The position numbers and the translations under genes were made by a program. Positions 5,584-24,228 of a stretch of DNA of 64,000 bases are shown in pieces. Under the pieces are notes generated by a model. That model was not told the DNA's origin and ran no database searches. It worked only from the letters and a program-made list of their open reading frames with translations. How positions within the stretch are numbered: the first letter of the stretch is position 1; each line of letters begins with the position of its first letter. The stretch comes from Bacteroidota bacterium (lineage in GTDB: Bacteria > Bacteroidota > Bacteroidia > JACCXN01), in contig JACCXN010000038.1 of assembly GCA_013696965.1 (NCBI GenBank), forward strand, positions 1 through 64,000, read 5' to 3'.

Positions 5584-8421
5584 TTAAAAAACTACCACTT
5601 TTGTAATTTCCTGTTGTTGATTTTGATTAACAACAATTAGGGTATAAATTCCTTTTTGAAAACCCTTCATATTAATGTTTGCTTGCTTTGAATTAACAAT
5701 ATCAAATAATAGCAGCTCCTGCCCCATTAAATTATAAATAATGCATGTGTAATTACCATTTCTGGTTAATTGTATATTCAACAATTCAAGCGTAGGATTT
5801 GGATAAACTTGTAAAGAAAAATCAGGGCCAGGAATTTTCTTTTCTTGTTCATTGGCCATGTTTAAATTTGAATAAAAAGGCAAAATAATTTGTGAAGGCT
5901 TATCGGGAGAGAAATATACTTTTTGAGTGGCTTTACGCGGAAACATTTCTGTTCCATTAAAAACATAGGGTTTTCCATCCTTGGGCTCCCTTCTAAAAAA
6001 TGCACCATTTTCAATTGGAAGATTTGGATTTGATTGATATCTAGGCCAGTTACTGCTGCTTATTAAAACCTTTAGTTTATGGTTAAAGCCAAAACAATAA
6101 GCAATAGGGAGCAAATTAAATTCGAGTTCATAAATTTCACCACTATTAATATTGGTATAAGGAAGAGTGATATTTTCATTTGCCTGGGCTAAGGATTTGG
6201 CATAATCCCTGGCCCTTGCATTTATGGCACCTTCAACAACAAAATATTCTCTTCCATCAGGGTACACATCAATAATACGTACAAAAAAGTCGGTATCAGT
6301 AGGGCCAAAACTTGATCCATGAGGAAGTGAACTAATGTATATTTTTGCTTTAGGTATTCCTACAATGGTAAGCGTGTCTTGAAAAAGCGTAGTTTCAAAG
6401 TGCAATACATCCGGTCTATCCATAGTATGGAGTGCTAATTCAGGATCATTGTAATTCATAGGCCCTGCATTTTCCCTATCTTTCTTTGGTGTTAATATAT
6501 CCAGATTTCCTCCTCCAACAGTATAAACAGGAGAATCTGGATCATGAACATAGCTATTAGGTATTTCCTCAGCCTTGGGAATGTTCAAATCTAAACTTCC
6601 ATCACCATGCAAATAAAGGGTATAATCGCTTACACCTTGAGTTAATGGAAAGTGATCAGAACTCACCCAATAATTCCCTACATAATTATTTTGAATAATT
6701 CCATCGTTTATTGGCCCTGGAATATAAAATCGCACATTTGGAATTTGTGCAAAATCCACAAAAGGAACAACAGGATCACTAAATAATTTACTTCCGGGAG
6801 GCTGAAAACTATCGATAGGAATATTAAATTCATAAAAAAAGGTATTGCCATCTATTTGTATTTCAATAGGAAAAGCCGCTAGTCCTTTTTGTCCTGTAAT
6901 AAAATTTAAAAAGTCTGAATAACTCAGGTAATAATCCTTGGATGGAACACTAAAACTGTAATTACCGATATTCTGCCAAGTTTTGCTTTTTGGAATCAGA
7001 ACCTTGGGTTCACCTATAAAATTAGTTGAATCATAATTGAGAAGGTACCTTAACCAACTTGCCACCTCCCCTTTAAATACCTCTGCAATGTTTTCAATAC
7101 TAGCGATTTCCATTTTTCCTGCAATACTAAGATCAAACACACTTTTTGGGAAAACCTGGTCTGTAACAGTATCCCTTCCAATGGTGCCATGAGTCCACGG
7201 GCCAATAATGATTTTTTGATGAGATTGGGTTTTTAAACTGGTGTGATTCATAATGTTGTTGTAGGTATTTATTTGACCGTCAATAAAAATATCCCACCAT
7301 CCTGTTAGATGATAGACAGGGAGTTCCATATTAGTATACCTATTAAACTGACCATCAAGGGCCGATTCTCCATTATTATCAACGGGAGCATAACTTGCAT
7401 CCATATCACTGCGGTTTTGATAATTCGGGTATATGGCAGAATACCCATTTTCATCTGGAATTGTAGAAAACTGGTCAATAGCCAGGTTAATAATATCCTC
7501 CGAAGAAAGCATACCATAATCGAAATTTGAATGAATAGCATTTTGAATATCAGTATCGTCAGGATTAATATTACCCATAATTTTCATTTGATTCTCAATC
7601 CATCCTGCCATTAGTCCTCTTCTAAAAACACCATTGTGTTGCACTGTAGAATTAAAATATTCAGCCGTGGCAACAATAGGAATTAGGCCTTTCAGCCCAT
7701 CAAGCGCTGTATTATTCTTTATGGATGATGCAGCTTGATATTGTGTATTCCCCAAGGCTGATCCGCCAAACATTGCTATACTTCCATTGTAAATTAGTTC
7801 TTCGGATTCATCTATTCCATCTTTATCTAAATCATACTTTTTCAACAAACTATCCATAATAAAGAGTATGGAATTTTTTCCATCTTCATGAAAAAGGCAA
7901 TTATTTTGATCAGTAAGTGATGTTACATCTAAAATATGTGATTGATTCGGATGATAGCTATCCTTTTTCCATCCATCACTGTACATAGGAAAATAGACAC
8001 CCTGGGATTGATACCTTCCTCTTAAATCTTGTAAAACATAAGCATATCCTAATATATTCATTGCCAATGCAATTAAATCATTAGATCCTTTATTGTAGGG
8101 TGTTCTGGTAAATACCAAGGGTAATCTGTATTTATTGAAATTAGCATGCCCGTTTAATGAGTCATAAACAAACAATTGCAATCCTTTTGGGATAATTTGT
8201 AAATTATAAGAAGATCCTAAAAAATTCAGGTCGATGGTTAAACTATCAGAGGTAATGGGAAGGTAAACATCTGTCATTAGCTGTACCCCATCCGGCATTG
8301 TAAATGGAACAGTTGTAAGTGTGGTAAATTCAGATATTAAATCCAATTTTCCATTGTTATTTGATTGTGTAAAACCAATTAAGCAGGAGCAGGAGAAAAT
8401 TAAAGCGAAAAAACATTTCAT
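5584..8421 (-). CDS. Secreted CocE/NonD (X-Pro dipeptidyl-peptidase S15) family hydrolase, T9SS cargo
   Basis: This 945-residue protein has a signal peptide ending near residue 19 (IGFTQ). The N-terminal alpha/beta-hydrolase part (about 35-440) has S15/CocE landmarks: PLVFTRTPYNKG, LQDLRGRYQSQG, a nucleophile elbow GGSALG with Ser221, GWWDIF with Asp377 and GPWTHG with His411. The elbow is GGSALG rather than the usual GxSYxG. A beta-rich X-Pro C-terminal domain follows (about 530-840), and residues about 865-945 are a T9SS type A sorting domain. The protein is therefore probably exported through the outer membrane and cuts acyl or peptide bonds; the true substrate is unknown. Its 5' leader is tandemly duplicated. 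The closest T9SS neighbour is the divergent glycoside-hydrolase-like gene. Confidence 0.88.
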   Translation of the reverse strand: MKCFFALIFSCSCLIGFTQSNNNGKLDLISEFTTLTTVPFTMPDGVQLMTDVYLPITSDSLTIDLNFLGSSYNLQIIPKGLQLFVYDSLNGHANFNKYRLPLVFTRTPYNKGSNDLIALAMNILGYAYVLQDLRGRYQSQGVYFPMYSDGWKKDSYHPNQSHILDVTSLTDQNNCLFHEDGKNSILFIMDSLLKKYDLDKDGIDESEELIYNGSIAMFGGSALGNTQYQAASSIKNNTALDGLKGLIPIVATAEYFNSTVQHNGVFRRGLMAGWIENQMKIMGNINPDDTDIQNAIHSNFDYGMLSSEDIINLAIDQFSTIPDENGYSAIYPNYQNRSDMDASYAPVDNNGESALDGQFNRYTNMELPVYHLTGWWDIFIDGQINTYNNIMNHTSLKTQSHQKIIIGPWTHGTIGRDTVTDQVFPKSVFDLSIAGKMEIASIENIAEVFKGEVASWLRYLLNYDSTNFIGEPKVLIPKSKTWQNIGNYSFSVPSKDYYLSYSDFLNFITGQKGLAAFPIEIQIDGNTFFYEFNIPIDSFQPPGSKLFSDPVVPFVDFAQIPNVRFYIPGPINDGIIQNNYVGNYWVSSDHFPLTQGVSDYTLYLHGDGSLDLNIPKAEEIPNSYVHDPDSPVYTVGGGNLDILTPKKDRENAGPMNYNDPELALHTMDRPDVLHFETTLFQDTLTIVGIPKAKIYISSLPHGSSFGPTDTDFFVRIIDVYPDGREYFVVEGAINARARDYAKSLAQANENITLPYTNINSGEIYELEFNLLPIAYCFGFNHKLKVLISSSNWPRYQSNPNLPIENGAFFRREPKDGKPYVFNGTEMFPRKATQKVYFSPDKPSQIILPFYSNLNMANEQEKKIPGPDFSLQVYPNPTLELLNIQLTRNGNYTCIIYNLMGQELLLFDIVNSKQANINMKGFQKGIYTLIVVNQNQQQEITKVVVF

Positions 8422-8606
8422 ATGTAGATAATTTGTTTTTTAAAGGTCATATGGTATAGCCAGGTTATCTTCATTAGTGTTTGTGCACTGTTCGGTGCAT
8501 GGCTATTTCATATGTAGATAATTTGTTTTTTAACGGTCATCCCGATTTCGGGATAGCCATGTTATATTCATTAGCGTTTGTGAACGGTTCGTGCATGACT
8601 ATTTCA
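8415..8606. repeat. Tandem duplication of the hydrolase gene leader, including its start codon
   Basis: Unit 1 (8415-8504, 90 bases) and unit 2 (8505-8600, 96 bases) are near-identical direct repeats, and a third seed follows at 8601-8606. Unit 2 differs mainly by containing the hairpin ATCCCGA-TT-TCGGGAT (8539-8554). Each unit ends, read on the minus strand, in ATGAAAT. In the gene-proximal copy this is the true start (ATG AAA TGT). In the two upstream copies (8503-8511 and 8599-8607) it is ATG AAA TAG, a two-codon open frame. Confidence 0.85.
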
Positions 8607-9156
8607 TAATCCTATTTTTCAATAATTAATGCTTAAGTCCTAAAGTTAATCAATTTTGATCATAAATATATTTACATTAAGGCTTTGATTATAAGTAGTT
8701 TTAAACATTTCTAACCAATTTCCTTTAGATTAGTTCGACTTAACAAATGCAAAAAATATATTTCCAAATGAAATTGAAGATTAGGTCCAGGAAAACATTT
8801 TCTTAATTTCCTTTCGCATTGTTTTTTTTACCAAATAACGTGGGCTGAAATCCAATATTTAATTTTCCCGGAAACAAAATAACTATTTAAGGTTTTATAG
8901 GTTAATAGAAATTGATCAGGGCAATTGGAAAAAATAGGCACGAGCTTTTTTTTATATTTTTTTTGCATACAATCCAATAATAACAACACTTTATAGTTAT
9001 TAGCTACTGGAAACGCCTATTATTAAAGCATTACAAACAACTGTAACACGAGTATTACAATAAACAATGGCAGTACAACTGAATTCATTGTTGTTAAATT
9101 TTCTATTTGCTTGAATCCATAATTTAATTATTAATTTTTCTTGTAACTAAAAAGCT
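8607..9156. other. Divergent intergenic region between two T9SS cargo genes
   Basis: This is AT-rich DNA with long T and A runs and no reading frame longer than a few dozen codons. It must hold the promoters of the minus-strand hydrolase and the plus-strand glycoside-hydrolase-like gene. No clear TAnnTTTG box with a well-placed -33 element was found. Nothing else is recognisable. Confidence 0.5.
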
Positions 9157-10863
9157 ATGAAAACAAAAACTATTTACTCAGTTCTTACCATTATTGCGCT
9201 ATTTATTCTTTCACAGGATACCTTCTCACAAGCTATCTCACCTTATTTTTTTGGTCAGAATTGCTGGATGCCAGATTCAATAGGCAGCAAGAAGTTTGGG
9301 GGTCAGCTTCACAATAAATGGCAGGAAATCAAGCAAAGTAATGCACAATTAATTCGTTTTGGGGGAATTGGCCCTGATGATAATAAACCTACAAATTATC
9401 AATATATTAAAATGATTGATTCGATAAGAATGAATGGAATGGAACCAATAATACAGGTTCCCTATTTTAATGGAAAATACACTGCATCCCAGGCAGCAGC
9501 AATAGTAGAGTATATAAATATTACTAAGGGAAAAAAAATTAAATTCTGGATTATTGGAAATGAACCGGATCATGTCTATAAATTTACAAGTTCTTCTCAA
9601 GTAGCACCATATATAAGATCTTTTTCCTCTGCGATGAAAGCAAAAGATCCCTCAATAAAAATTATCGGTCCTGAAACAGCATGGTATAATACAAATATTA
9701 TCAATGGATTAACTTCACCAGGAGGTCCTGATGATATAACAGGAAAAGATGCTGCTGGAAGGTATTATATAGATGTTATTTCATTTCATACTTATCCTTT
9801 TAATGGCACCCAGACACGTGATGAAGTTATTTCCAACCTTACTGTTCCAGGAAATTTTCAGGATCGTCTCTCGTCTCTTAACTCCAGAATAATAAATTGT
9901 AATACTGCGCATGGAAGAACTGGTGATAATGCATTAATAACAGCAGTTACAGAGGCTAATATAAATTTCAAAAACAGCGATACAGACAATTTAAATGGAG
10001 TTGGTGCCAATAGTTTTATCGGGGGCCAGTTTTGGGTTGAAATGATGGGGATTGGATTAAAGAAAAATCTTGGTTTTTTTAATTTCTGGAGTGTTGTTGA
10101 AGGAAATACACAAGCCTTAAATATTGGTTATTTAGATAGAAACAACGGTAACAAAAAGCCTAGCTACCATCATTTTAAATTAATGGCAGGAAACTTCAAA
10201 GGAAATTATTGTAATGCCACAGACAATAAGGGCAATATAAAGGTTTTTGGAAGTAAAGATACAACTCAAATAGCTGTAATTATATTAAATCAAAGCCAGA
10301 GCAGCAATTATGATTTTAAACTTCGTTTAAATACAGCTGATGTTTCCGGTAACAACAATTTAAAAATCAATGTTAATGCTGATTTAGATATTGAATACGA
10401 TGATATAATCGAAAACCAATCTACAATTTTATTGGTGTTTGATAAAGCCGGAAACATTAAAAAAAAGTGTGAGTACAAACTAAATGGACATGCAAATGCT
10501 AACCTTCCTCCCGCTTGCACTAATTATTCCGACCCGGTTACTCAATTAAAGACAATTGAAAAAAATGAAGATCCCGAAAAAATCAATGGTGAAAAATTAA
10601 TGGATTTTAAGGTTTATCCAAACCCTGCTAATAACAATTTTACTATTAATTTTAATGATGGTGAAAACTCCAAAAATTCTGTAGTGTTAAAGATGATTGA
10701 TCAGGTAGGCAGAGTTGTACTTAATGAAAAATTTACTTTAATTGATGGGCATTTAAATAAACAAATAGAAATAAATGATTATTCAATTGCCACTGGGGTT
10801 TATTCAATCCAAATTGAATCAGATAAAAATGTTTACAGTACTAGAATAATCCTGACAGAATAA
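9157..10863 (+). CDS. Secreted glycoside-hydrolase-like TIM-barrel protein, T9SS cargo
   Basis: This 568-residue protein has a signal peptide (1 to about 25, ending FSQ). Residues about 30-345 look like a clan GH-A TIM barrel: IRFGGIGPD (67-74), IIQVPYFNG, a probable acid/base in WIIGNEPD (Glu136), DVISFHTYPF (206-215) and a candidate nucleophile in ITAVTEANI (Glu267). A small beta domain (about 360-430) follows, of the kind that caps arabinofuranosidase- or GH39/GH30-like barrels, and then a T9SS type A sorting domain (about 482-568) starting at DFKVYPNPA. I cannot assign the exact GH family or the sugar. No polysaccharide-utilisation genes (SusC/SusD) are nearby, so it seems to be an isolated secreted enzyme. 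Confidence 0.8.
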   Translation: MKTKTIYSVLTIIALFILSQDTFSQAISPYFFGQNCWMPDSIGSKKFGGQLHNKWQEIKQSNAQLIRFGGIGPDDNKPTNYQYIKMIDSIRMNGMEPIIQVPYFNGKYTASQAAAIVEYINITKGKKIKFWIIGNEPDHVYKFTSSSQVAPYIRSFSSAMKAKDPSIKIIGPETAWYNTNIINGLTSPGGPDDITGKDAAGRYYIDVISFHTYPFNGTQTRDEVISNLTVPGNFQDRLSSLNSRIINCNTAHGRTGDNALITAVTEANINFKNSDTDNLNGVGANSFIGGQFWVEMMGIGLKKNLGFFNFWSVVEGNTQALNIGYLDRNNGNKKPSYHHFKLMAGNFKGNYCNATDNKGNIKVFGSKDTTQIAVIILNQSQSSNYDFKLRLNTADVSGNNNLKINVNADLDIEYDDIIENQSTILLVFDKAGNIKKKCEYKLNGHANANLPPACTNYSDPVTQLKTIEKNEDPEKINGEKLMDFKVYPNPANNNFTINFNDGENSKNSVVLKMIDQVGRVVLNEKFTLIDGHLNKQIEINDYSIATGVYSIQIESDKNVYSTRIILTE

Positions 10864-10916
10864 TAATTACATTAACTTGAGTTCAATTATTAAATAGCAA
10901 ACCTGTAACTGATACT

Positions 10917-11062
10917 GATTCCTCATTAGCTGCGCTTCATTTCCAGAATGACAGTTATTAGCCTTAAAAGAGGTTAAGGGTTAAATGGCTGTTTTACCGC
11001 CATTTAACCCTTAACCCCTCATAGAATAAAATTCCTGTCATTCCGACCAAAGGGAGGAATAT
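10917..11062. repeat. Paired REP-like elements flanking a long hairpin
   Basis: Two copies of a REP-like motif face each other. The left reads GATTCCTC...AGAATGACAG (10917-10954) and the right reads CTGTCATTCCGACC...GGAGGAATATCT (about 11035-11064). The whole block could fold back with the 18-bp hairpin at 10972-11016 in its centre. It lies just behind the glycoside-hydrolase-like gene. Elements of this 'TCATTCC...GGAATCT' type are dispersed repeats in many bacterial genomes. Confidence 0.6.
10972..11016. terminator. 18-bp perfect hairpin, possible terminator
   Basis: GGTTAAGGGTTAAATGGC (10972-10989) pairs perfectly with its complement at 10999-11016 around a 9-base loop. It lies 109 bases past the stop codon of the glycoside-hydrolase-like gene. 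There is no T-run, so it may stabilise the mRNA end or belong to the REP-like element rather than act as an intrinsic terminator. Confidence 0.55.
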
Positions 11063-11084
11063 CTACAATGCACAAAAAAAATCA

Positions 11085-11360
11085 AAACAGGACCAGGATA
11101 AATCCCCGTCATTCCAAACAGCGTGATAACAAATTGCACGAAAAATAATTATAATCGAATTTAGTTAAGTGAGAAAACTCTGACAAATTGCACGAAACAT
11201 AATTATATTCGAACTCAGGTTATTACTATATAAAATCCAAACAGGACCAGGATATATCCCCGTCATTCTAGACAGCGTGAGGAATCTCTGACAAATTGCA
11301 CGAAATATTATTATAATCGAACTTAGTTATTACTATACAAAATCAAACAGGATCAGAATA
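11085..11360. repeat. Degenerate tandem repeat of about 107 bases
   Basis: Two motifs alternate. P (AAACAGGACCAGGATA) starts at 11085, 11239 and 11345, the last with two changes. Q (ACAAATTGCACGAAA then ATAATTATAATCGAA-like) starts at 11129, 11183 and 11291. P2-P3 is 106 bases and Q2-Q3 is 108, while Q1-Q2 is only 54 because a P is missing. Two P copies are followed by CCGTCATTC and ACAGCGTGA, REP-like text. The array lies between the glycoside-hydrolase-like gene and the convergent end of the CotH array. Confidence 0.75.
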
Positions 11361-11577: not shown

Positions 11578-14550
11578 TTAATAAAAAATAATTTTTTTTG
11601 AAATAAATGATTTTTTATCACATATTTTAATAAAATACATTCCAGGTGAAAAATTATCTCGGTCAATACGTATTTCGTATTCGGCTAGTGAATTCATTCT
11701 TTTAATCTCATTGCCCATATAATCATACATTGAAAAAGATAAATCACTAAGATCGCCATGAGTTAATATGATTTTTATTTTAATAAAGTCAAAGGATGGA
11801 TTAGGTCCAATTTCCACTTGGAATGAATTTAACAATTCATTTTGTAAAATTCCTGTTGAACATTCTGGATTGTATTGTTTACCTGGTGAGCCGCCAAAAC
11901 AGCCTGCAAACCAGTTGGAGGGAAGGTCAAGGCTGACTAATGGATCTTTTAACTCCAATGTTTTCCCCATGCCGTCAGCTTCCATGGGCCAGGGGCTTGC
12001 ATCACTATAATTCACCGATAATACCATCTTGTAATTATAGTCTAACAAACTAATTTTTTCACCGCTATTGGAGAGGTTAAAGGGAATCTGACTTGTATAT
12101 TTTGCTACAAAGGGATATTGGCTAACAAATTTTTGGGTATCGCAACTAAAAACAGCATATCCATTAGGGGGTATTATTGTTCCAAAAGGAATTTGATATA
12201 AATTAGACCTATTTCCATTATCGATATACCAACCTGTAAGGTTTACTGAAACATTTCCATAATTGTGTAATTCTAACCAGTCTCCTGCATCGCTCTCTAT
12301 GGAAGAATTGTAATTAATTTCACTGAAAGTAACTTTAACATCTTTTGAAGAGCCTGTAAAATATGCTATAAATTTATCATCAGAACTTATATTTAATAAA
12401 ATGGATTCCTGATATAAATCTGAAATAATTGAATTACTTCCCCAATATTCAAAAGTAAAACCTGGGTTTGCAATTGCAGTGATTGTAACTGGAACGCCAT
12501 TAAAATAAACTCCTGTCCAGGGTAGGCTATCTGGTATCACAGTATTAATATTTATCCTTCCTGCTTCTAAAGGAGAGCAAATTAAAGTAACATTTACCTG
12601 ATTTTTAAGTGCAAACTCATTTTGAATGTGTTGTCTTGCAATGGGTAACCTTTGTTTATTGAATTCCAACATTTCATCTATTTCATATAGCCATTTAGTA
12701 TAAGTGCCATCCCATTTTTCAAAATGACGATGCATAAAAGGATCTAATTCATCCCGCATTTCAAATGCAATCTTTTCCATATTAACTGGTTGAAATGTTG
12801 TATTCATAATATCTGCATATCGGTTTACAAAATAATTCATGAATACTGTGTTTTTTAGTAATGCCCTTAACATGTCAGAATGAACATTAGGGCCAATAGG
12901 ATTATGAACCATGGCCAGGTTGTTAACTCCAACCTCACGCCTTTTTCCACCTAATCCTTTATCCAGATCAAAATGAGCATACCGCCATTTACCTGAGTTT
13001 TGCGAACGCCACAATCTTATATTGTTACAAGGGCTAGTGTTATCAATCCAATCGTCATTTCCATAGTAAATTTGACTTGCCATGTAATCAACAAAGTTCT
13101 TAACATCAAGAGCTTGGGAAACATTTTCAATAAAATCAGCACTTTTATGGTCTGCGCTCTTAATTTTTGTAGCCATTTTTAAAAAATCCTCGTTACTACC
13201 AGCCTGGGCCCAAATTTTAGTACCTCTGTGTTTTAAAACATCCACAAGGTCAGCATCAACTTTATGATTACTTTCTAAATAATGTTCATCCTGTCGCTCC
13301 CTCATATCATAAACCCCCCAATATTCTCCATTCAAAAAAACTATTACTGGTTCGTATTCGATTATATCAACATTGGTATTTTTAAGGATTCTATGCATAA
13401 ATGCATCTCGAATACGAGAGGCATCATATTCCTGGCCGCCATTACGTAAATTGATACTTTTAAAGGTCTTAATAAAACTTTTTTCTCTAAAGAGTGGATA
13501 TTCAATTGGGCCTTGTCCTAATTTTTTCTTGGTAACAATTCTGAAACTTCGTTGTGCAAAAGCCCTTGAACGTCCGCCATGTATTTGTAACTCTGCTTGC
13601 AACTCGAATTGTTTAATGTTTTTATTATCGAAATATTCCACATGGCATAATTTATCCCACGATTTCCAAAAATTTGCACCATAATATGGAAATTTAGGTG
13701 ATGCATCTGGTCCCATTACATACATCCCGATTTTATTATCCCAAAGGTCTTCGGGGTTTATTGAAATTGAGAATATGGGCAAGTTAAGTTCATTCTCATT
13801 TATAAAATAAGTGCTTTTTACCGTTTTACTGGGAAGCTTATTTACACTGCTGTAACATTTAGCCGAAATAATTTTTGTTGAATTTATAAGTAATTCTGAC
13901 GAATATAAGCTTGATGTACTGGTTGGAAATCCACCATCAAGGGTATACCTAATGATGGCTGTTGGTGAAGGGGTAAAAAGTTCAACAACCTGGTTAAATG
14001 AATAAAACCCGGAATTTAACGAAATTATGGGATCCGGTTCATATCCTTCATAACATTGGGAATTATTATTTGATAGGTTTGGAGATGGGTTATTAAAAAG
14101 GCACCATACATCACTTCCATCCGGATTTCTACCGAAAGAATTGTTATTTTGCAACATTCCTAAATAATAGTTATCTACAATATTGCCATCATCGCTAAGT
14201 ATTATATTCTCCCCATTTGAGGAAAGCTTAAAATTAGTATGGAGAAAATTCTCATCCAAAATATCTTTACCGGATGCGAATATTATTTTATATGAATTTG
14301 CATCTATAGAAATATCAGGAAAAAACCATTTGTCTGGTTTGCCTGGATCATCACTAAGTGAATAATTTAACAGACTCACGGGAAAAGGGTTATTATTGTA
14401 GATTTCTATCCAATCATTAAATTCATTTGTTTCATCTCCAATAATGGAACCATTGGCATTGGAAACTTCATTTATCACTATTTGAGCTTTTAAATAATTT
14501 GATAAACAAAACATCAGGAAAAACACAAAAAATAAAAACGGTTTTTTCAT
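11578..14550 (-). CDS. CotH-kinase-like secreted protein 1 (array copy 1), T9SS cargo
   Basis: This 990-residue protein is built as: signal peptide (1 to about 23, LKAQ), lamin-tail domain (24-165), chitobiase/hexosaminidase-type C-terminal beta domain (about 172-250), CotH domain (about 257-640), InlB-like repeat (652-735, GFTFEYWG), second lamin-tail domain (738-885) and T9SS type A sorting domain (907-990). The CotH part shows HGGRSR (324-329), NLRNGG (367-372), NGEYWGVYDMRERQDE (407-422) and the acidic pair FDLD (Asp528, Asp530). CotH proteins are atypical secreted kinases, known from Bacillus spore coats, where such acidic residues bind metal. With copy 4 it shares a 12-residue GPDAS...GANFWK insertion (280-296). 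The substrate is unknown. Confidence 0.9.
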   Translation of the reverse strand: MKKPFLFFVFFLMFCLSNYLKAQIVINEVSNANGSIIGDETNEFNDWIEIYNNNPFPVSLLNYSLSDDPGKPDKWFFPDISIDANSYKIIFASGKDILDENFLHTNFKLSSNGENIILSDDGNIVDNYYLGMLQNNNSFGRNPDGSDVWCLFNNPSPNLSNNNSQCYEGYEPDPIISLNSGFYSFNQVVELFTPSPTAIIRYTLDGGFPTSTSSLYSSELLINSTKIISAKCYSSVNKLPSKTVKSTYFINENELNLPIFSISINPEDLWDNKIGMYVMGPDASPKFPYYGANFWKSWDKLCHVEYFDNKNIKQFELQAELQIHGGRSRAFAQRSFRIVTKKKLGQGPIEYPLFREKSFIKTFKSINLRNGGQEYDASRIRDAFMHRILKNTNVDIIEYEPVIVFLNGEYWGVYDMRERQDEHYLESNHKVDADLVDVLKHRGTKIWAQAGSNEDFLKMATKIKSADHKSADFIENVSQALDVKNFVDYMASQIYYGNDDWIDNTSPCNNIRLWRSQNSGKWRYAHFDLDKGLGGKRREVGVNNLAMVHNPIGPNVHSDMLRALLKNTVFMNYFVNRYADIMNTTFQPVNMEKIAFEMRDELDPFMHRHFEKWDGTYTKWLYEIDEMLEFNKQRLPIARQHIQNEFALKNQVNVTLICSPLEAGRININTVIPDSLPWTGVYFNGVPVTITAIANPGFTFEYWGSNSIISDLYQESILLNISSDDKFIAYFTGSSKDVKVTFSEINYNSSIESDAGDWLELHNYGNVSVNLTGWYIDNGNRSNLYQIPFGTIIPPNGYAVFSCDTQKFVSQYPFVAKYTSQIPFNLSNSGEKISLLDYNYKMVLSVNYSDASPWPMEADGMGKTLELKDPLVSLDLPSNWFAGCFGGSPGKQYNPECSTGILQNELLNSFQVEIGPNPSFDFIKIKIILTHGDLSDLSFSMYDYMGNEIKRMNSLAEYEIRIDRDNFSPGMYFIKICDKKSFISKKIIFY

Positions 14551-14631
14551 TTAAATAAATTAAAAAGTCAGAAGAAAAAAATGTTTTTCATTTCTAAAAA
14601 AAAATGAATTATTTATTAAATTATAATAAAA

Positions 14632-14640
14632 ATGTTGCCA
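14632..14640 (-). promoter_or_regulatory. Shared upstream element of the CotH array (copy 1)
   Basis: Minus-strand TGGCAACAT, followed by T-rich and A-rich DNA, ends 81 bases before the start of CotH copy 1. The same element in the form TGGCAATAT stands before copies 2 and 4. It may be part of a promoter or an activator site. Confidence 0.5.
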
Positions 14641-14809
14641 TTTCAATACATGCACTTATTTCTTTAGGAATCAACCAAGAATAATTTATCGTTCTATTAT
14701 TTTTAATACATTGAATTAATTTTGATGTATTATTTTCCACAAAGTGTGCATTAATCGGATTGGCTATATACTACTAATAATAGTGTCAAAAAGCTTAGTG
14801 CTTATTTTA

Positions 14810-17746
14810 TTATTGGAAAATAATTTTTTCTGTAATAAAATGAGTAGAATTTCCAGTTTTCACAATATAAATTCCAGGGACAAAATCTTTCCGGTCAAGC
14901 ACTAATTCATTATTTTCCAAGGATTTTATTTTTTTAACTTCTTTTCCGGTAAAGTCATACATTGAAAAAGATAAATCACTTAGAATTTCTTTATCCAAAA
15001 TAATCTTAATTACAATTAGGTCATCGGAAGGATTTGGTCCAATTTCCAAATGAAAATGGTTGTTTATGACTTTTTCAAGGATTCCTGTCAGGCATTCTGC
15101 ATTATAGCCAACTCCAGGTGATCCTCCAAAGCATCCTGCAAACCAATTTGAACCAACATCCAGACTTTCCATTGGATCTTTTAATTCCAATGTTCGCCCT
15201 TTACCATCACATTCATTTGGCCATGGGCTAGCATCACTATAGGTTACCGATACAACGGGTTTGTAATCATAGTCCAACAAACTAATTGTTTCACTACTAT
15301 TGGAAAGATTAAATGGAAGTTGACTTGTAAAAATTGTAACAAAGGGATGTTGGCTTACAAATTTTTGAGTATCACAACTAAAAACAGCATATCCATTAGG
15401 GGGTATTATTGTTCCGAAAGGAATTTGATATAAATTAGCCATATTCCCGTTATTAATATACCATCCTGTTAGGTTTACAGGTAATTCTCCATAATTATGC
15501 AATTCCAACCAGTCACCAGCATCATTCTCAAATGCTGAATGGTAATTTATTTCACTGAAAGTAATTTTAGGCTCAATGGCAGAACCCTTAAAATAGGCTG
15601 TAAAAATATCGTCAGAACTGATATTTAATGTAATTTTTTCATTTGGATCCACACTTGAAATATTTTTGTTTACTCCCCAATAATCAAAAGTAAAACCAGG
15701 ATTTGGAATAGCAGTAATAGTTACTGGAACACCATCATAATAAACCCCATTCCAGGGAATAGATTTAGGTATAATTGAATTGATCTTTATCCTTCCTGCA
15801 TTATAAGGTGAAACAACTAAATTTAACTCCACCTGCTTCACCAGGTTAAACTCCGTTTGAATATGGTTTCGAACGTGATCTCCTCTGGCACTAAACCAAT
15901 TTAGCATATTGTCAACTGAATTATTCCATGCATTGTAACTCCCTCCCCACCTCTCCTGATGTCTTTGCATGGATGAGCTAATCGAATCGCGCATGGGGTA
16001 AGCAACTTTTATTAAACTATCATATTGGAAAACAGTATTCATAAGATCTGCAAACCTATTTACAAAATAGTACTTAAATTCCTGGTTATTTAACATTGAA
16101 CTAAACATTTCAGAATGAATATTGTAATTAGGCGGATTTATTATTCCTGAAAGATTATTCGAGCTAGCCGAGATTCCAAATATTCCACTTGTCATATCCA
16201 AATCCCAAAAAACATATCTCCATTTTCCACCTGGTAATTGGGAATGCCAAAGCTTTATATTGTTGCTACCCCCACTTGGCTTTATCCAATCATTGTTATG
16301 ATAATAAATTTCCGCAATGAAATAATCAACATAGTTTTCAATGTCAATCATTTTCCCAACATTGTTATAAAAAGTAGAACTCTTTGCCTCGGTAGTTTTT
16401 ATATAGTTGTGCATGCTGTAAAATGATGTATCCGATCCTGAAAGAACCCTAATACTTCCTTTATGGGTTAATAAATCAACCTTTTCTGCTGGAACCCCAT
16501 AATTGCTTTCAATGTATTTTTCATCCTGCTTTTCCCTTATTTCATATTCTCCCCAATATTCGCCATTTAAAAAAACAATGGCAGGCTCATATCCCATTGT
16601 ACCTACATTTTCGTTTTTCATTACCTTTTGTAAAAATGCATCTCTAAATCGGGTATAATTATAATCTGTGCCTCCATTTCGTAAATTAAAAGATTCAAAC
16701 CAAGTTACCTTCGGTTTTTCAGGTATCAAAGGGAAATTAAGCACAGAGGTTCCATATTTTTTTCGACATTTTATTCTAAAACTCTTTTGTGGTTTAGCCC
16801 TTGAGAAACCTCCATGTATTTTAATCCCCGCATCCAGTTCAAACTGTTTAACTTTTTGTTTATCAAAATACTCTACATGACATAACTTTTCCCAATCCTG
16901 TTTAAAATTCATATAAATTCCAGTACTGTTGTCAAACAAATCCTTGGGATTCATTGTTATAGAAAATACGGGAAGATCAAAGCTGTTCTCATCAATGAAA
17001 TAAGTTCGTTTTATAACTTTGCTCGGAAGCCTGTTACCACTGCTATAACAAACAGAGGAAATTATACTGGTCTTATTTGCATTAATTGGATTGGCATAAG
17101 TACTCGATGAATTAGAGGGAAAACTACCATCTACACTATACTTTACTATCCCCGAAGGCGAGGGAGTATACAATTCAATTGTTTGACTACTGGGATAAAA
17201 ACCAGCATTCAAAGAAAATGCAGGTTCAGGCTCATACCCCTCATAACAAGCAGAATTGGTATTGGTAGCACCAGGAGAGGGAGTATTAAACAAACATAAA
17301 TTTGTTCCTCCATCAGGACTTCTCCCCGAAGAATGATTGTATTGTAAATGACCTATTTCAAAATTATCAACAATGTTTCCATCATCATCACTAAATATAA
17401 TTTTTTCTCCAGTTGATTTGAGCTTAAAATTAGTGTGAAGGTATTTTCCATTTTTTATATCCTTTCCCGAAGCAAAAATAATTTTATACGAAAGTGGTTC
17501 TATTATAAAATCAGGGAAAGTCCATTTATCAAACTTGTTTATATTATCTGAAAGTGTATAGTTTAATAAATTAACAGGAAGGGAAGATGAATTATAAATT
17601 TCAATCCAATCATTGTTCTCCCCGCTTTCATCCATTAAAATGGAACCATTTGCATTGGAAATTTCATTTATTATTACTTGACTATACAAAGTTTTTTGGA
17701 TGACAAGAACTAAAACAAAAGTCAACAAAAAGAAATATTTTTTCAT
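14810..17746 (-). CDS. CotH-kinase-like secreted protein 2 (array copy 2), T9SS cargo
   Basis: This copy has 978 residues from the ATG at 17746. An in-frame ATG at 17875 would add 43 residues, but only the 17746 start gives the MKKYFF...YSQ signal peptide seen in its paralogues, and the longer form would run through the shared upstream element. Domains follow copy 1: lamin-tail (24-165), chitobiase-type beta domain (172-250), CotH (258-630), InlB-like repeat (about 640-720), lamin-tail (728-875), T9SS sorting domain (about 895-978). Key motifs are HGGFSR (311-316), NLRNGG (354-359), NGEYWGEYEIREKQDE (394-409) and WDLD (Asp515, Asp517). It lacks the GANFWK insertion. It shares a 64-base stretch with a single mismatch with copy 1. 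Confidence 0.9.
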   Translation of the reverse strand: MKKYFFLLTFVLVLVIQKTLYSQVIINEISNANGSILMDESGENNDWIEIYNSSSLPVNLLNYTLSDNINKFDKWTFPDFIIEPLSYKIIFASGKDIKNGKYLHTNFKLKSTGEKIIFSDDDGNIVDNFEIGHLQYNHSSGRSPDGGTNLCLFNTPSPGATNTNSACYEGYEPEPAFSLNAGFYPSSQTIELYTPSPSGIVKYSVDGSFPSNSSSTYANPINANKTSIISSVCYSSGNRLPSKVIKRTYFIDENSFDLPVFSITMNPKDLFDNSTGIYMNFKQDWEKLCHVEYFDKQKVKQFELDAGIKIHGGFSRAKPQKSFRIKCRKKYGTSVLNFPLIPEKPKVTWFESFNLRNGGTDYNYTRFRDAFLQKVMKNENVGTMGYEPAIVFLNGEYWGEYEIREKQDEKYIESNYGVPAEKVDLLTHKGSIRVLSGSDTSFYSMHNYIKTTEAKSSTFYNNVGKMIDIENYVDYFIAEIYYHNNDWIKPSGGSNNIKLWHSQLPGGKWRYVFWDLDMTSGIFGISASSNNLSGIINPPNYNIHSEMFSSMLNNQEFKYYFVNRFADLMNTVFQYDSLIKVAYPMRDSISSSMQRHQERWGGSYNAWNNSVDNMLNWFSARGDHVRNHIQTEFNLVKQVELNLVVSPYNAGRIKINSIIPKSIPWNGVYYDGVPVTITAIPNPGFTFDYWGVNKNISSVDPNEKITLNISSDDIFTAYFKGSAIEPKITFSEINYHSAFENDAGDWLELHNYGELPVNLTGWYINNGNMANLYQIPFGTIIPPNGYAVFSCDTQKFVSQHPFVTIFTSQLPFNLSNSSETISLLDYDYKPVVSVTYSDASPWPNECDGKGRTLELKDPMESLDVGSNWFAGCFGGSPGVGYNAECLTGILEKVINNHFHLEIGPNPSDDLIVIKIILDKEILSDLSFSMYDFTGKEVKKIKSLENNELVLDRKDFVPGIYIVKTGNSTHFITEKIIFQ

Positions 17747-18156
17747 AAAAACTGAATCATTAGAATTTGAAAAACAACTTAAATTGCTTTCTAATTTCAT
17801 ATAATAATATTGCCACAAAAATCCTTCTGTATTTTTGAGATTTGGAATTCCAAAAAGCCCACCATAAAATGTCACTGAAATTATTTAGAAAGCAAATTAA
17901 TATGCAAACTGAGGAATTTATTCACTCTATAGAAATTTGATTATTTAGCTTTGGGAACTGTTCTGTTTTCATCATTTATTGTATGCAATAGTTGCATTAA
18001 ATTGAAAAGAAACAAAGAGTTTAGACTGAAGGGTTAATAAGCTTCAAATAAATACACTAAAAGTATTTTTAATAAAGTAAGGAAGAAAAAGGATGAAAAC
18101 TAAGACTGAACTAGGGTTATAGTATTTATTGAATTTTCTCCAATTTAATCTCCCTT
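17747..18156. other. Intergenic region between CotH copies 2 and 3
   Basis: This 410-base, AT-rich stretch holds the upstream element of copy 2 at 17807-17815. Nothing else is recognisable: no hairpin with a T-run and no plausible gene. The in-frame extension of copy 2 to 17875 lies here and is judged untranslated. Confidence 0.5.
17807..17815 (-). promoter_or_regulatory. Shared upstream element of the CotH array (copy 2)
   Basis: Minus-strand TGGCAATAT, followed by TATTATATGA, ends 60 bases before the preferred start of CotH copy 2. It matches the elements before copies 1 and 4 at eight or nine of nine positions. Confidence 0.5.
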
Positions 18157-21087
18157 TTACATATATATAATTTTTTTCGCTATAAAACCCTTGCCATTAC
18201 TCACTTTTATAAAATAAATTCCATCAAGAAGACCTTCTCGAGGTACAATCAACTTGGTGGTAGGAGTAAATTTAATTTGTTTTATTTTAACTCCAAACAT
18301 ATCATACAACTCAAATAGGAATTCATTCGTTTCGCTTGTATCCATTTCAACTGTTATTGAACCACTTGCAGGATTTGGGGAAATTGTAAGTGCTGACAAT
18401 TCTTGCTCCACCTCGTCAACAATTGTAAGGCATTGAGCATTATAAGCTATTCCTGGAGAACCACCAATACATCCCGCAAACCAATTGGATGATAAATCCA
18501 GATTAATTAGTGGATCCTTCAACTCTAATGTTCTTCCCATTCCATCAGCTTCCTTAGGCCAAGGAGGTGAATCGAGATACGTAACTGAGATTACTGGTTT
18601 ATAATCGTAATTTAATAAGCTTATCTGTTCGCTGCTGTTGGCTAAATTAAAAGGAAGCTGTTCTTTAACAACTGCCACGAAAGGATGTTGGCTAACAAAT
18701 TTTTGAGTATCACAACTAAAAACAATATGGCCATTAACAGGCACAATTGTTCCAAAGGGAATTTGATATAAATTTGAATTATTTCCATTTTTTAAATACC
18801 AACCAGTAATGTTTAGGGCAATGTCTCCATAATTGTTTACTTCCAGCCAATCTCCTGCATCATTTGCTGAAGATGAATGGTAATTTATTTCACTGAAAGT
18901 AATTTTAGGCTCAGCAGCTAAACCTGTAAAATAAGCAGTAAATGTATCATCCGCACCTATATTTACAGTAAAGGCTTCATTAAAAACAGGATTGGAAACA
19001 CTTTGGTTAATTCCCCATTTTTCAAAAGTAAAACCGGGGTTTGGAATAGCTGTTATTGTTACAGGCACTCCATTGTAATAAACGCCCTTCCAGGGAAGGC
19101 TGTCAGGAATAATCGTACTTATCTTGATTCTCCCCGAATTTGGAGGAGAAGTAGTTAAAGTAATATTTACCTGTCCTTTTAAACTAAATTCATCATTTAA
19201 ATGTTTTCTTGCATAGGGCATTCTTCTTTTATGCCAATTCACCATTTTATCTACTGAATAGTGCCACCACGCATAATCCTTCCCCCATTTATCCTGGTGT
19301 CTTTCCATAGAGGAAGCTATGGAATCTCGCATATCGTATGCAACTTTTTTTATATTTTCTAATTGAAAAGCAGTATTCATTAAATCAGCATATCTGTTAA
19401 CAAAATAGTTTCTAAATTCAGTATTTTGACTTAAATACCTAAAGATATCTGAATGAACATTAGGCTCCATGGGATTTCTAACCATTGCCAAATTATTTAC
19501 CCTATCAGTTGGTTTATCATATAACCCCGATCCCATATCTAAATCCCAAAACATATATTTCCATTTAGAATCCGGCTTTTTTTCCCTGTATAATCTAATA
19601 TTATTGGCTGGGGCAGTATTGTCAATCCAATCACGGTTTGAATAGTATATTCCTGCAATAAAATAATCTGTAAAGTTTTCCAAATCCAGTGTTTGATTGG
19701 CTAATTTATAAAAATCCGATTTTTGATGACTGATGGATGAAATGTAATCATGCATAACATAAAATTCATCAACAGAACCTGCTTGAGCCCTAACAAAATC
19801 TCCTTTATGATACAGCAGATCTACCTGGTCCTCGGGAATTCCGTAATTCTTTAATAGATGTTGTGTGTTTTGTTGTTCTCTAATTTCATATTGTCCCCAA
19901 TATTCTCCATTTAAAAATACTATGGCTGGTTCATATCCCATTCTATCTACAGGTGAGTCCTTTAAAACTCTTTGCATAAAAGCATCCCTAATTCTACAAT
20001 AACTATAATCTCCACCACCATTGCGTAAATTAAACCTTTTGTAGGATTTTATATGAGGTTTCTCAGGAATTAAGGGATATTCAAGCCATGATGTTCCATA
20101 TTCTTTTCGAGTAAGGATCCTGAAACTCTTTTGAGCTTGTATTTTTGAATAATTCCCCTGAATTTTTATTCCCGCTGATAATTCAAATTGCTTGACTTTT
20201 TGTTTATCAAAATATTCTATATAACATTGTTTTTCCCAATCCTGTTCGTAGTTGGTATAAATCCCTATATTATCATCAAATAAATCATCTGGAGCCATAG
20301 TAATTGAAAATACTGGCAAATCAAAACTACTATCATTAATAAAGTAAGTTCGTTTTACTACGCTACTCGGGAGCCTGTTGCCACTGCTATAACAAATAGC
20401 GGATACAACTGTAGTCTTATCTGCACTTATAGGCAATGAATAGGTAGTCGAGGAATTAGAAGGAACATTTCCATCTAATCTATATTTAATTATTCCAGTC
20501 TGAGAAGGTGTATATAACTCTACTGTTTGACTAGATGGGTAAAACCCTGCATTTATTGAAAATACTGGAGCTGGCTCATAACCATCATAACAAGAAGAAT
20601 TGTTATTGCTAGCAGCCGGAGTAGGAGTATTAAACAAACAAATTTGTGTTGCTCCATCTGGTTTTCTTCCAAAAGAATGATTGTATTGCAGCTGCCCTAT
20701 TTCAAAAAAATCAATAATATTTCCATCATCATCACTTAAAATTATTTTTTCTCCTGTTGATTTAAGTTTAAAATTGGTATGGAGATATTGTCCGGATTTG
20801 ATGTCCATTCCAGATGCAAAAACAACTAGATAAGAAAGTGGTTGTATAGTAATTTCAGGGAAAGTCCATTTATCAAGTTTCTTTGTATTATCGGTAACTG
20901 AATGGCCTCGTAAATTATATGGCTGGGTTGAGGAATTATATAATTCAATCCAATCATAACTTTCATCGCTTTTGTCAATTAAAATGCAACCATTTGCATT
21001 GGAAATTTCATTTATTACTATTTGGCTGTACGAAGAATTCGTTAAAAATAAATTTAAAAATAAAGCGAAGAAAAGGAGTTTTTTCAT
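18157..21087 (-). CDS. CotH-kinase-like secreted protein 3 (array copy 3), divergent, T9SS cargo
   Basis: This 976-residue protein has the array layout: signal peptide (1-22, SSYSQ), lamin-tail (23-165), chitobiase-type beta domain (172-250), CotH (258-630), InlB-like repeat (640-722), lamin-tail (728-875) and T9SS sorting domain (about 895-976). NLRNGG (353-358), NGEYWG (393-398) and WDLD (Asp515, Asp517) are kept. Residues shared by the other copies are changed: HGG becomes QGN (310-312) and the QD of the REKQDE motif becomes QN (Asn407), followed by TQHLLKN instead of the usual EKYIESN-like text. This copy may have lost or altered activity. Unlike its sisters, it has no TGGCAAYAT element upstream. 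The short-form loop (NYEQDWEK) matches copy 2. Confidence 0.9.
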   Translation of the reverse strand: MKKLLFFALFLNLFLTNSSYSQIVINEISNANGCILIDKSDESYDWIELYNSSTQPYNLRGHSVTDNTKKLDKWTFPEITIQPLSYLVVFASGMDIKSGQYLHTNFKLKSTGEKIILSDDDGNIIDFFEIGQLQYNHSFGRKPDGATQICLFNTPTPAASNNNSSCYDGYEPAPVFSINAGFYPSSQTVELYTPSQTGIIKYRLDGNVPSNSSTTYSLPISADKTTVVSAICYSSGNRLPSSVVKRTYFINDSSFDLPVFSITMAPDDLFDDNIGIYTNYEQDWEKQCYIEYFDKQKVKQFELSAGIKIQGNYSKIQAQKSFRILTRKEYGTSWLEYPLIPEKPHIKSYKRFNLRNGGGDYSYCRIRDAFMQRVLKDSPVDRMGYEPAIVFLNGEYWGQYEIREQQNTQHLLKNYGIPEDQVDLLYHKGDFVRAQAGSVDEFYVMHDYISSISHQKSDFYKLANQTLDLENFTDYFIAGIYYSNRDWIDNTAPANNIRLYREKKPDSKWKYMFWDLDMGSGLYDKPTDRVNNLAMVRNPMEPNVHSDIFRYLSQNTEFRNYFVNRYADLMNTAFQLENIKKVAYDMRDSIASSMERHQDKWGKDYAWWHYSVDKMVNWHKRRMPYARKHLNDEFSLKGQVNITLTTSPPNSGRIKISTIIPDSLPWKGVYYNGVPVTITAIPNPGFTFEKWGINQSVSNPVFNEAFTVNIGADDTFTAYFTGLAAEPKITFSEINYHSSSANDAGDWLEVNNYGDIALNITGWYLKNGNNSNLYQIPFGTIVPVNGHIVFSCDTQKFVSQHPFVAVVKEQLPFNLANSSEQISLLNYDYKPVISVTYLDSPPWPKEADGMGRTLELKDPLINLDLSSNWFAGCIGGSPGIAYNAQCLTIVDEVEQELSALTISPNPASGSITVEMDTSETNEFLFELYDMFGVKIKQIKFTPTTKLIVPREGLLDGIYFIKVSNGKGFIAKKIIYM

Positions 21088-21261
21088 TAAATATGTTTTT
21101 TTACTGTTTTTAATCCAAAATTTATTGTTTTCAAATCTCTTTATAGATCAAGAAACGATCTACACATACTGTCTTTTCCTCTACCATTATATTAAGAAGT
21201 AATTTGGAGCTAAATATGACTTAGGATAACATTGTTTTGATTTTCCTGACTTAAACTTTCA

Positions 21262-24228
21262 TTATTGATAGATAATTTTTTTTGTTGTGAATCCTTTACT
21301 ATTACCTACTTTAATAATATATATTCCAGCTGCAAGTCCATCTCGATCTACAATTATTCTTTTATTATTAGAAAATAGTACTTGTTTGATTTTTACTCCA
21401 AATAAATCATACATTTCAAAATGTAAGTCTTGGCTATCATTTGATAGAAATTCAACGGTAATGGAACCCGTTGCCGGATTAGGAGCAATTTTTAAAGGTG
21501 TGGATTGAGCCACTTCATCAACAGCTGTAATACAGGCCGAATTGTATGCTATTCCCGGAGACCCTCCAATACAACCTGCAAACCAATTGGAGGCCAAATT
21601 AAGATCGGATGAGGGTTCTTTTAACTCCAATGTTCTGCCTAACCCATTCGCTTCTCTGGGCCAAGGAAAGTCATAACTATACGAAACTGATAAACATATA
21701 CTGTGATCGTATTTAGACAGTGTGATTAAATCACCGCTGCTTTTAAAATCAAAAGGTAGCTGACCAATAAAATTTTTTACGTAAGGGAAATTCGCTACAA
21801 ATTTTTTAGTATCACAACTAAAAACAATGTAACCATTTGAAGGTATCATAGTTCCAAATGGAATTTCAAATTTTCTGGAACTGTTTTTATCCTTTATGTA
21901 CCAACCCGACAGATTTACTGAAACAGTACCAAAATTATGTAATTCTATCCAATCCCCAGCGTCAGTGTTTGGATTGGAGTTGTAATTTACTTCACTCCAT
22001 GTTAGTTTTGGTTCAACCGCTGAACCTGTAAAATGAGCTATAAATGTATCATCTGTACTTATATTTAGTGTTATTGACTCATTAATATCGGGATTTGCAA
22101 TATTTCCATTGATGCCCCAATTCTCAAAAGTAAAACCAGGATTGGGAATTGCTGTTAGGGTTACTGGTACACCATTATAATAAACACCTTTCCAGGGAAG
22201 ACTATCTGGAATAATAGTACTTATCCTTATTCTTCCTGCATTAGGAGGGAAAGTTTCTAAGCTTACCATTACTTGTGAAGGAAGGTTAAACTGACTTTGA
22301 ACAAAGCCCCTTTGAAGATCGAGTCTTTTAAAATGCCAGTTTACCATTTGATCAACATCCTTTAACCATTTTTCGTAATTTCCTGGCCATTTCACTTTAT
22401 GCCGGGGCATTGATGTTCGAATTGAATCACGCATTGCATAAGCAGTTTCTTTTATATTTTTATATTGAAAAACTGTATTCATTAGATCTGCATACCTATT
22501 TATAAAATAAATGTTGAATTGACTGTTTTTAAGTAATTTGCCTAAAATATCGGAATGTTGGTTTGGGTCGTTTGGGCTTATAACAGCAGGTAAATTGTTA
22601 ATAGTTGGAGCATAACCATATAGTCCTGATGCTTGATCAATATCCCAAAAAACATAGCGCCATTTTCCATCTGGATTTGTTTGTCTCCATAGTTTGATAT
22701 TATTACTAACAGTAGTATGGTCAATCCAATCATTATTAGAATAATAGGTTTGGGCAATAAAATAATCTGCGAAATTTTCAAGATCAAGCATTTGTTCCAC
22801 TTTAGGATAGAATGTTGAACTTTGAGGATCTGAAGTATTTATGAAATTGTGCATTGAATTGAATCCATCCAATGTTCCTGAAAGCGCTCTTAAATAACCT
22901 TTATGAGTAAGTAAGTCCAAATGATCCTCAGGTACTCCAAAATTATTTTCTATATATTTTGCATCCTGCTGTTCTCTTATCTCATATTCTCCCCAATACT
23001 CCCCATTCAAAAAAACCAAAGCTGGTTCGTAACCCATTATGTCAACATGGCAATCTTTCATAATTCTTTGCATAAATGCATCTCTAAAACGAGTGTAACT
23101 ATAATCCTGACCTCCATTGCGCAGGTTAAAAGACTTAAAAACACCTATCACAGACTTTTCAGGTATCAAGGGGTAATTTAGTACTGTTGTTCCATATTCA
23201 GACTTACATTTAATCCTAAGACTTTTTTGGCCTTCTCCCCTTGAGTAACCACCATGAATAGATACTCCTGCATTCATTTCAAATTGTTTAACTTTTTGTT
23301 TATCAAAATATTCAACATGACATAATTTTTCCCAATCTTTCCAAAAATTTGCACCTTTATAAGGATATGTTGTTGATGCACCTGGTCCCATTGCATATAT
23401 TCCTGTGTTATAATCCCATAAGTCAGAGGGATCTAAAGTGATGGAAAATATAGGAAGATCACAATTTGTTTCATTAATAAAATACGATCTTTTTATTGTA
23501 TTACTTGGCAAGCGATTACTACTACTGTAACATTTTGCCGAAACAATTTTTGTTGAATTTATAACTAGGGCCGAAGAATAAATACTTGCTGATCCCGATG
23601 GAAATCCTCCATCTAATTCATATCGAATAATTCCTGTGGATGATGGAGTATAGAGTTCAACTATTTGAGAGGCTGAATAAAATCCTGAGTTTAATGAAAT
23701 AACAGGATCGGGTTCATAACCATCATAACAGGGTGAATTATTGTTGGTTTTCCCTGGACTTGGAATATCAAAAAGACACCATTTTTCTCCTCCATCTGGC
23801 TTTCTTCCAACCCCATGGTTGTTTTGAAGTTCTCCTAAACTATAATAATCTATAATATTTTCATTTGCATCACTTAGTATTATTTCTTCCCCGGTTTTTG
23901 ATAATTTAAAGTTTGAGTGAAGATAATTATTGACTAGTGTATCCTCTCCTGATGCATAAACAATTCTAAAGGAGTAGGGTTCTAAAACAATGTTAGGAAA
24001 AAGCCATTTTTTAGGTTTTTTTGGATTGTCAGAAAGTGAATAATTTAATAAATTTACGCTTTGAGAGCCAGAATTAAATATTTCAATCCAATCGTGTGTT
24101 TCTTGCTTTTCATCCAAAAGAAGTGAACCATTGGAATTTGAAATTTCATTTATCACAACCTGGCTATAAACCACATTTGTGATAATAAATAAAAACAAAA
24201 AAGCTATTGTACAAAACGTTTTTTTCAT
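21262..24228 (-). CDS. CotH-kinase-like secreted protein 4 (array copy 4), T9SS cargo
   Basis: This 988-residue protein is the first in transcription order. Domains: signal peptide (1 to about 23, YSQ), lamin-tail (24-165), chitobiase-type beta domain (172-252), CotH (260-645), InlB-like repeat (about 652-735), lamin-tail (740-890) and T9SS sorting domain (about 910-988). Motifs are HGGYSR (325-330), NLRNGG (368-373), NGEYWGEYEIREQQDA (408-423) and WDID (Asp529, Asp531). It carries the GPGAS...GANFWK insertion (281-297) found otherwise only in copy 1. Its C-terminal domain resembles that of copy 3 (DLFGVKIKQV beside DMFGVKIKQI), so it looks like a mosaic. The lamin-tail and beta domains probably bind other surface molecules. 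Confidence 0.9.
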   Translation of the reverse strand: MKKTFCTIAFLFLFIITNVVYSQVVINEISNSNGSLLLDEKQETHDWIEIFNSGSQSVNLLNYSLSDNPKKPKKWLFPNIVLEPYSFRIVYASGEDTLVNNYLHSNFKLSKTGEEIILSDANENIIDYYSLGELQNNHGVGRKPDGGEKWCLFDIPSPGKTNNNSPCYDGYEPDPVISLNSGFYSASQIVELYTPSSTGIIRYELDGGFPSGSASIYSSALVINSTKIVSAKCYSSSNRLPSNTIKRSYFINETNCDLPIFSITLDPSDLWDYNTGIYAMGPGASTTYPYKGANFWKDWEKLCHVEYFDKQKVKQFEMNAGVSIHGGYSRGEGQKSLRIKCKSEYGTTVLNYPLIPEKSVIGVFKSFNLRNGGQDYSYTRFRDAFMQRIMKDCHVDIMGYEPALVFLNGEYWGEYEIREQQDAKYIENNFGVPEDHLDLLTHKGYLRALSGTLDGFNSMHNFINTSDPQSSTFYPKVEQMLDLENFADYFIAQTYYSNNDWIDHTTVSNNIKLWRQTNPDGKWRYVFWDIDQASGLYGYAPTINNLPAVISPNDPNQHSDILGKLLKNSQFNIYFINRYADLMNTVFQYKNIKETAYAMRDSIRTSMPRHKVKWPGNYEKWLKDVDQMVNWHFKRLDLQRGFVQSQFNLPSQVMVSLETFPPNAGRIRISTIIPDSLPWKGVYYNGVPVTLTAIPNPGFTFENWGINGNIANPDINESITLNISTDDTFIAHFTGSAVEPKLTWSEVNYNSNPNTDAGDWIELHNFGTVSVNLSGWYIKDKNSSRKFEIPFGTMIPSNGYIVFSCDTKKFVANFPYVKNFIGQLPFDFKSSGDLITLSKYDHSICLSVSYSYDFPWPREANGLGRTLELKEPSSDLNLASNWFAGCIGGSPGIAYNSACITAVDEVAQSTPLKIAPNPATGSITVEFLSNDSQDLHFEMYDLFGVKIKQVLFSNNKRIIVDRDGLAAGIYIIKVGNSKGFTTKKIIYQ

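Follow-up and report, generated by a model that had tools for sequence, protein, structure and literature searches.

A tandem array of four CotH-domain genes with type A T9SS tails in a Bacteroidota genome: local expansion within a common family of secreted proteins

The window considered here, that is, the whole stretch of DNA analysed, comprises 64,000 nucleotides from a Bacteroidota bacterium (assembly GCA_013696965.1, contig JACCXN010000038.1, positions 1 to 64,000). It contains four adjoining genes on the minus strand that encode large proteins of one architecture (Table 1). The original prediction of four neighbouring genes of 976–990 codons was correct, provided that the second copy is read from an ATG, and so was the domain order described for their products. 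According to Pfam, this order is the same in all four proteins: LTD, CHB_HEX_C_1/Fn3_assoc (CHB), CotH, Flg_new_2 (an InlB-like repeat), a second LTD, and Por_Secre_tail. The sole domain in the array under its cut-off is the InlB-like repeat of copy 1 (18.2 bits vs. 23.6). At the protein level, copies 2, 3, and 4 are 58, 54, and 54% identical to copy 1. The reading frame of copy 2 as listed begins with a GTG at 17875 (14810–17875, 1021 aa); judging by the conserved MKK start of the putative signal peptide, the true start is probably the ATG at 17746, with the GTG left unused.

Table 1. Genes of the CotH array in the window, with the segments encoding the CotH domain
Gene	Architecture	Length (aa)	Position	Strand	CotH domain DNA
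Copy 1	LTD-CHB-CotH-InlB-LTD-T9SS(A)	990	11578–14550	-	12646–13590
Copy 2	as copy 1	978	14810–17746	-	15878–16825
Copy 3	as copy 1	976	18157–21087	-	19216–20169
Copy 4	as copy 1	988	21262–24228	-	22321–23265

The genes are separated by gaps of 259, 410, and 174 bases, so that a tight operon is not evident. Terminator-like sites between the copies are fewer than the shuffle expectation, promoter-like sites in the array are at this expectation, and a scan of the four upstream regions for the −33/−7 Bacteroidota motif gave no match. Neither Rfam RNAs at 9–27 kb nor tandem DNA repeats that could explain the array were found. The surroundings of the array consist of a gene for a T9SS protein, one for an S15 peptidase, and genes of metabolism; neither a VTC or DUF4956 gene nor an evident substrate gene adjoins it. 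In contrast to the CotB-CotG-CotH spore-coat module of Bacillus, there are no CotB/CotG-like repeat substrate genes in the neighbourhood. A T9SS-secreted protein of 568 aa, encoded at 9157–10863 (plus strand), has the tail as its one Pfam match and looks glycoside hydrolase-like by eye, and a secreted S15-type peptidase (CocE/NonD; 5584–8421, minus strand) also bears a type A T9SS tail.

The CotH identity of the central domain, which had been proposed before any profile search, is now well established. PF08757 scores 115–147 bits in all four copies (cut-off 23.8; E 1e-33 to 1e-42). The copy 3 domain, modelled from an alignment of 85 diverse CotH domains (mean pLDDT 96.6), has its best PDB matches in Bacillus cereus CotH with AMP/Mg (5jda, TM 0.75/0.78, E 1.2e-15) and in its apo form (5jd9, TM 0.75, E about 1e-15), and the next match after CotH is the Golgi casein kinase 4kqa with a borderline E of 4e-3. 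The structure 5jd9 was matched in a profile search by sequence as well (E 1.3e-19). Although identity to the Bacillus spore-coat kinase is only 15%, the fold is common to both, and the positions that align between them are the pair of catalytic aspartates, a Glu, an Asn, and an NG-x3-G motif. In copy 3, D486 and D515 coincide, in the profile alignment, with two aspartates of the 5jd9 chain that are 23 residues apart (counted by eye). In B. subtilis CotH, substitution of D228 and D251 inactivates the kinase (PMC7821199), and it is on the strength of the profile alignment and the same 23-residue spacing that D486 and D515 were equated with this pair. The catalytic aspartates of Bacillus CotH thus appear to be matched by D500 and D528 in copy 1 and by D486 and D515 in copy 3. 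Both aspartate columns are 99% conserved among the 85 domains and invariant across the four array copies. At the same time, R99 and D112 of the domain (R355 and D368 of copy 3), which are conserved within the subfamily, lack a counterpart in Bacillus CotH 5jd9, indicating that the active site is not identical. In the full-length model of copy 3 (pLDDT 90, pTM 0.74), beta-rich modules flank the CotH domain on both sides; several additional domains and secretion by the T9SS distinguish the array proteins from the Bacillus enzyme.

Export of the array proteins by the T9SS, as originally proposed, is supported by the type A tail (Por_Secre_tail/TIGR04183), which exceeds the Pfam and NCBIfam cut-offs in all four copies, and by the presence of SprA in the same genome (2698 bits). 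The N-termini, inspected by eye, resemble signal peptides in having a conserved MKK, a hydrophobic stretch, and SQ or AQ, and the model of copy 3 has a helix at this end. The genome contains 148 matches to type A tails. Two other tandem arrays of type A cargo have been noticed in it, one of five genes for proteins of 484–694 aa (L146, G000:C72, 2144–10714) and one of three genes for proteins of about 700 aa each (L145, G000:C91, 3603–10192). Thus, this genome amplifies T9SS cargo genes in tandem repeatedly, and not only those for CotH proteins.

In a tree of CotH domains with 142 rows, the array forms one clade (SH-aLRT 96), whose sister is a single gene for an 819-aa protein on contig C7 of a distant relative (G354). 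Two genomes of the same family (81 and 86% complete) lack the array and have one CotH gene each. The domains of the four copies, however, do not tell one history: quartet support is for 14|23 in the first LTD and CHB, for 13|24 in the C-terminal half of CotH, and for 12|34 in the tail, a conflict (chi2 106.7) that was reached in none of 1000 site permutations and with which domain trees including outgroups agree. The grouping at the N-terminal end is in line with a stretch of 14 residues that copies 1 and 4 share with the relatives and that copies 2 and 3 lack. Judged from these comparisons, the four copies are mosaics, with recombination among array members taking place at or near domain borders. 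It was initially suggested that single-copy orthologues in close relatives might expose the array as an assembly duplicate. The relatives are in part of this kind, but no assembly duplicate is shown thereby, and divergence at about 40% or more of residues together with the conflicting domain histories identifies the copies as true paralogues. Although the genome is a draft of 106 contigs, an origin of the four genes from one gene by an assembly or binning artefact has a negligible probability: all copies lie on one contig, are about 54–61% identical, differ in their indels, and have mosaic domain histories. Assembly duplication was rejected on this divergence and mosaicism.

The expectation that secreted multi-copy CotH proteins are unusual in Bacteroidota has not been borne out. 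CotH is present in 230 of the 395 Bacteroidia genomes sampled, and near-full-length relatives of the array proteins (E <= 1e-60, at most two candidates scored per genome) in at least 141, i.e., in over half and over a third of the sample, respectively. Tandem or near pairs of CotH genes recur (G022:C7, G020:C99, G045:C2, G096:C395, and G354:C6; contigs L027, L039, and L064), and there is a probable triple at G373:C86. Among the matches listed, the number of CotH genes reaches 14 in one Bacteroidia genome, and no other run of four was found, the array being the longest among those. Proteins of the LTD-CHB-CotH type are not confined to Bacteroidota: Bacillota of the rumen and gut frequently have them, and they are also present in Kiritimatiellota, Sumerlaeota, and others. 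The view of the array as an undescribed system is likewise not supported, since the family is common and proteins combining LTD and CotH are already known from cellulosomes. The Clostridium thermocellum protein Cthe_0239 (LTD-LTD-Fn3-CotH; PMC6083626) is likewise a secreted combination of LTD, Fn3-type, and CotH domains, but it belongs to the cellulosome, whereas the array proteins are exported by the T9SS. Also similar are the Bacteroidota T9SS proteins of the LTD-CHB-CotH-InlB(-LTD) type, which have the same core domain order and a T9SS tail (full-length profile scores of about 700–900 bits). In contrast to the array, they are mostly encoded by single or paired genes, such as that for the 819-aa protein mentioned above and those for proteins of about 1030–1080 aa beside VTC in G022, G334, and G354, and several sit in VTC-DUF4956 operons. 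Most relatives carry about 190 residues inserted within the first LTD (e.g., residues 106–299 of L109), which are absent from the array. In the literature on CotH together with the T9SS or Bacteroidetes, no paper was found that gives these proteins a function in the phylum. The array thus represents a local, lineage-specific expansion of a common family of secreted proteins.

As to function, the explanation that we favour, with modest confidence, is that the array encodes T9SS-exported, surface-displayed atypical kinases of the CotH type, which phosphorylate surface or matrix proteins or glycans and whose modules are shuffled by recombination; catalysis, surface retention, and the substrate class are what we infer here. 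The proteins would be exported by Sec, use the T9SS to cross the outer membrane, and remain attached to the cell surface, where the beta-rich flanking modules (LTD, CHB/Fn3-like, and InlB-like) would bring the kinase domain up to polymers of the envelope or matrix. Glycans or proteins of the surface or matrix would be phosphorylated by this domain, and recombination between the copies would shuffle the modules and diversify the protein set.

ATP is scarce outside the cell, so that a kinase at the surface faces a genuine difficulty in finding a phosphate donor. This scarcity speaks for a different role, one we regard as rather unlikely, in which the proteins would serve chiefly for adhesion or as scaffolds of the matrix, with CotH as a binding module of vestigial kinase activity. 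Beta-rich modules of the binding type make up most of each protein, shuffling among paralogues is typical of surface binding proteins, and a comparable domain set resides in the cellulosome in the form of Cthe_0239. Moreover, a binding role has been proposed for the CotH invasins of Mucorales, which are GRP78 ligands (PMC9973265), and cellulosomal CotH modules would be a further parallel. However, catalytic-type residues are retained in all four copies, even though identity of the CotH domains drops to 49–61%; a pure scaffold would need no such residues, and their retention therefore counts against this role.

A clue to the biological context of the family comes from the relatives of the array. 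At 7 or 8 of the 20 relative loci examined, the LTD-CotH gene is accompanied by a recurring set consisting of a VTC polyphosphate polymerase, a DUF4956 membrane protein, a DUF2490 outer-membrane-type protein, and a small lipoprotein; no recurring secreted substrate gene was found beside the nearest relatives, only this set. VTC genes adjoin CotH in many Bacillota loci too. Among the 395 Bacteroidia genomes, CotH is present in 181 of the 187 that bear VTC (odds ratio 98, ignoring kinship), and at least 33 VTC-CotH pairs within 4.5 kb were hand-picked in 30 genomes among the matches listed. In Gram-positive bacteria, CotH, a polyphosphate polymerase, and DUF4956 have been described as accessories of Pel exopolysaccharide loci (PMC7112168); the relatives of the array share these VTC and DUF4956 partners, whereas the array itself is apart from them. 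This linkage places the CotH family in envelope or matrix biology.

In the CotH-domain tree, the array is placed beside the VTC-linked clade, not within it. Its genome has eight CotH genes, four of which are the array members, and three VTC genes, on contigs C35, C91, and C93, none being on the contig of the array. The VTC gene of C93 is accompanied by another CotH gene and an O-antigen ligase gene, in a cluster (L010, G000:C93, 5644–14916) that comprises DUF4956, VTC, CotH (580 aa), O-antigen ligase, an SGNH-like protein, a divergent CotH of 862 aa in which several conserved residues are lost, and a metallophosphoesterase. On C20 (L011, G000:C20, 7897–11519), an LTD-CHB-CotH-InlB protein with a type B (CHU_C) T9SS tail is followed by a PorP/SprF gene. 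The lipoprotein-VTC-DUF4956-DUF2490 sets of C35 (L143, G000:C35:43000-60000, 6841–10004) and C91 (L144, G000:C91:99000-117000, 7482–11102) are without cotH; relatives of these operons carry cotH, and the lipoprotein there appears to have a duplicated domain. The array may serve the cotH-less operons of C35 and C91 in trans.

The same linkage could be taken to mean that, in a VTC/DUF4956 polyphosphate context, the target of the CotH domain is not a protein but a glycan or exopolymer, which it would phosphorylate or modify in some other way. The neighbours of CotH in both phyla and in the Pel loci, its presence in nearly all VTC-bearing genomes, and the C93 cluster with its O-antigen ligase are in line with such chemistry, which we nevertheless consider improbable. 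Linkage is association, not chemistry, and the array is unlinked to VTC genes. Furthermore, the only characterised CotH substrates to our knowledge, CotB and CotG, are both proteins.

One long shot deserves mention, namely, that the array might be the kinase half, detached and amplified, of a system that phosphorylates the surface and is linked to polyphosphate. In it, the VTC/DUF4956 operons of this genome, including the two without cotH, would make or export the phosphate donor or product. If true, the use of this donor or product outside the cell by a recombining panel of T9SS-displayed CotH kinases would solve the shortage of extracellular ATP. The VTC-DUF4956 linkage, although outside the window, is the best new lead and provides a concrete partner hypothesis, for which a genome that has VTC operons devoid of cotH and, unlinked to them, a cotH array offers a good test case, the array itself providing four natural variants of one architecture.
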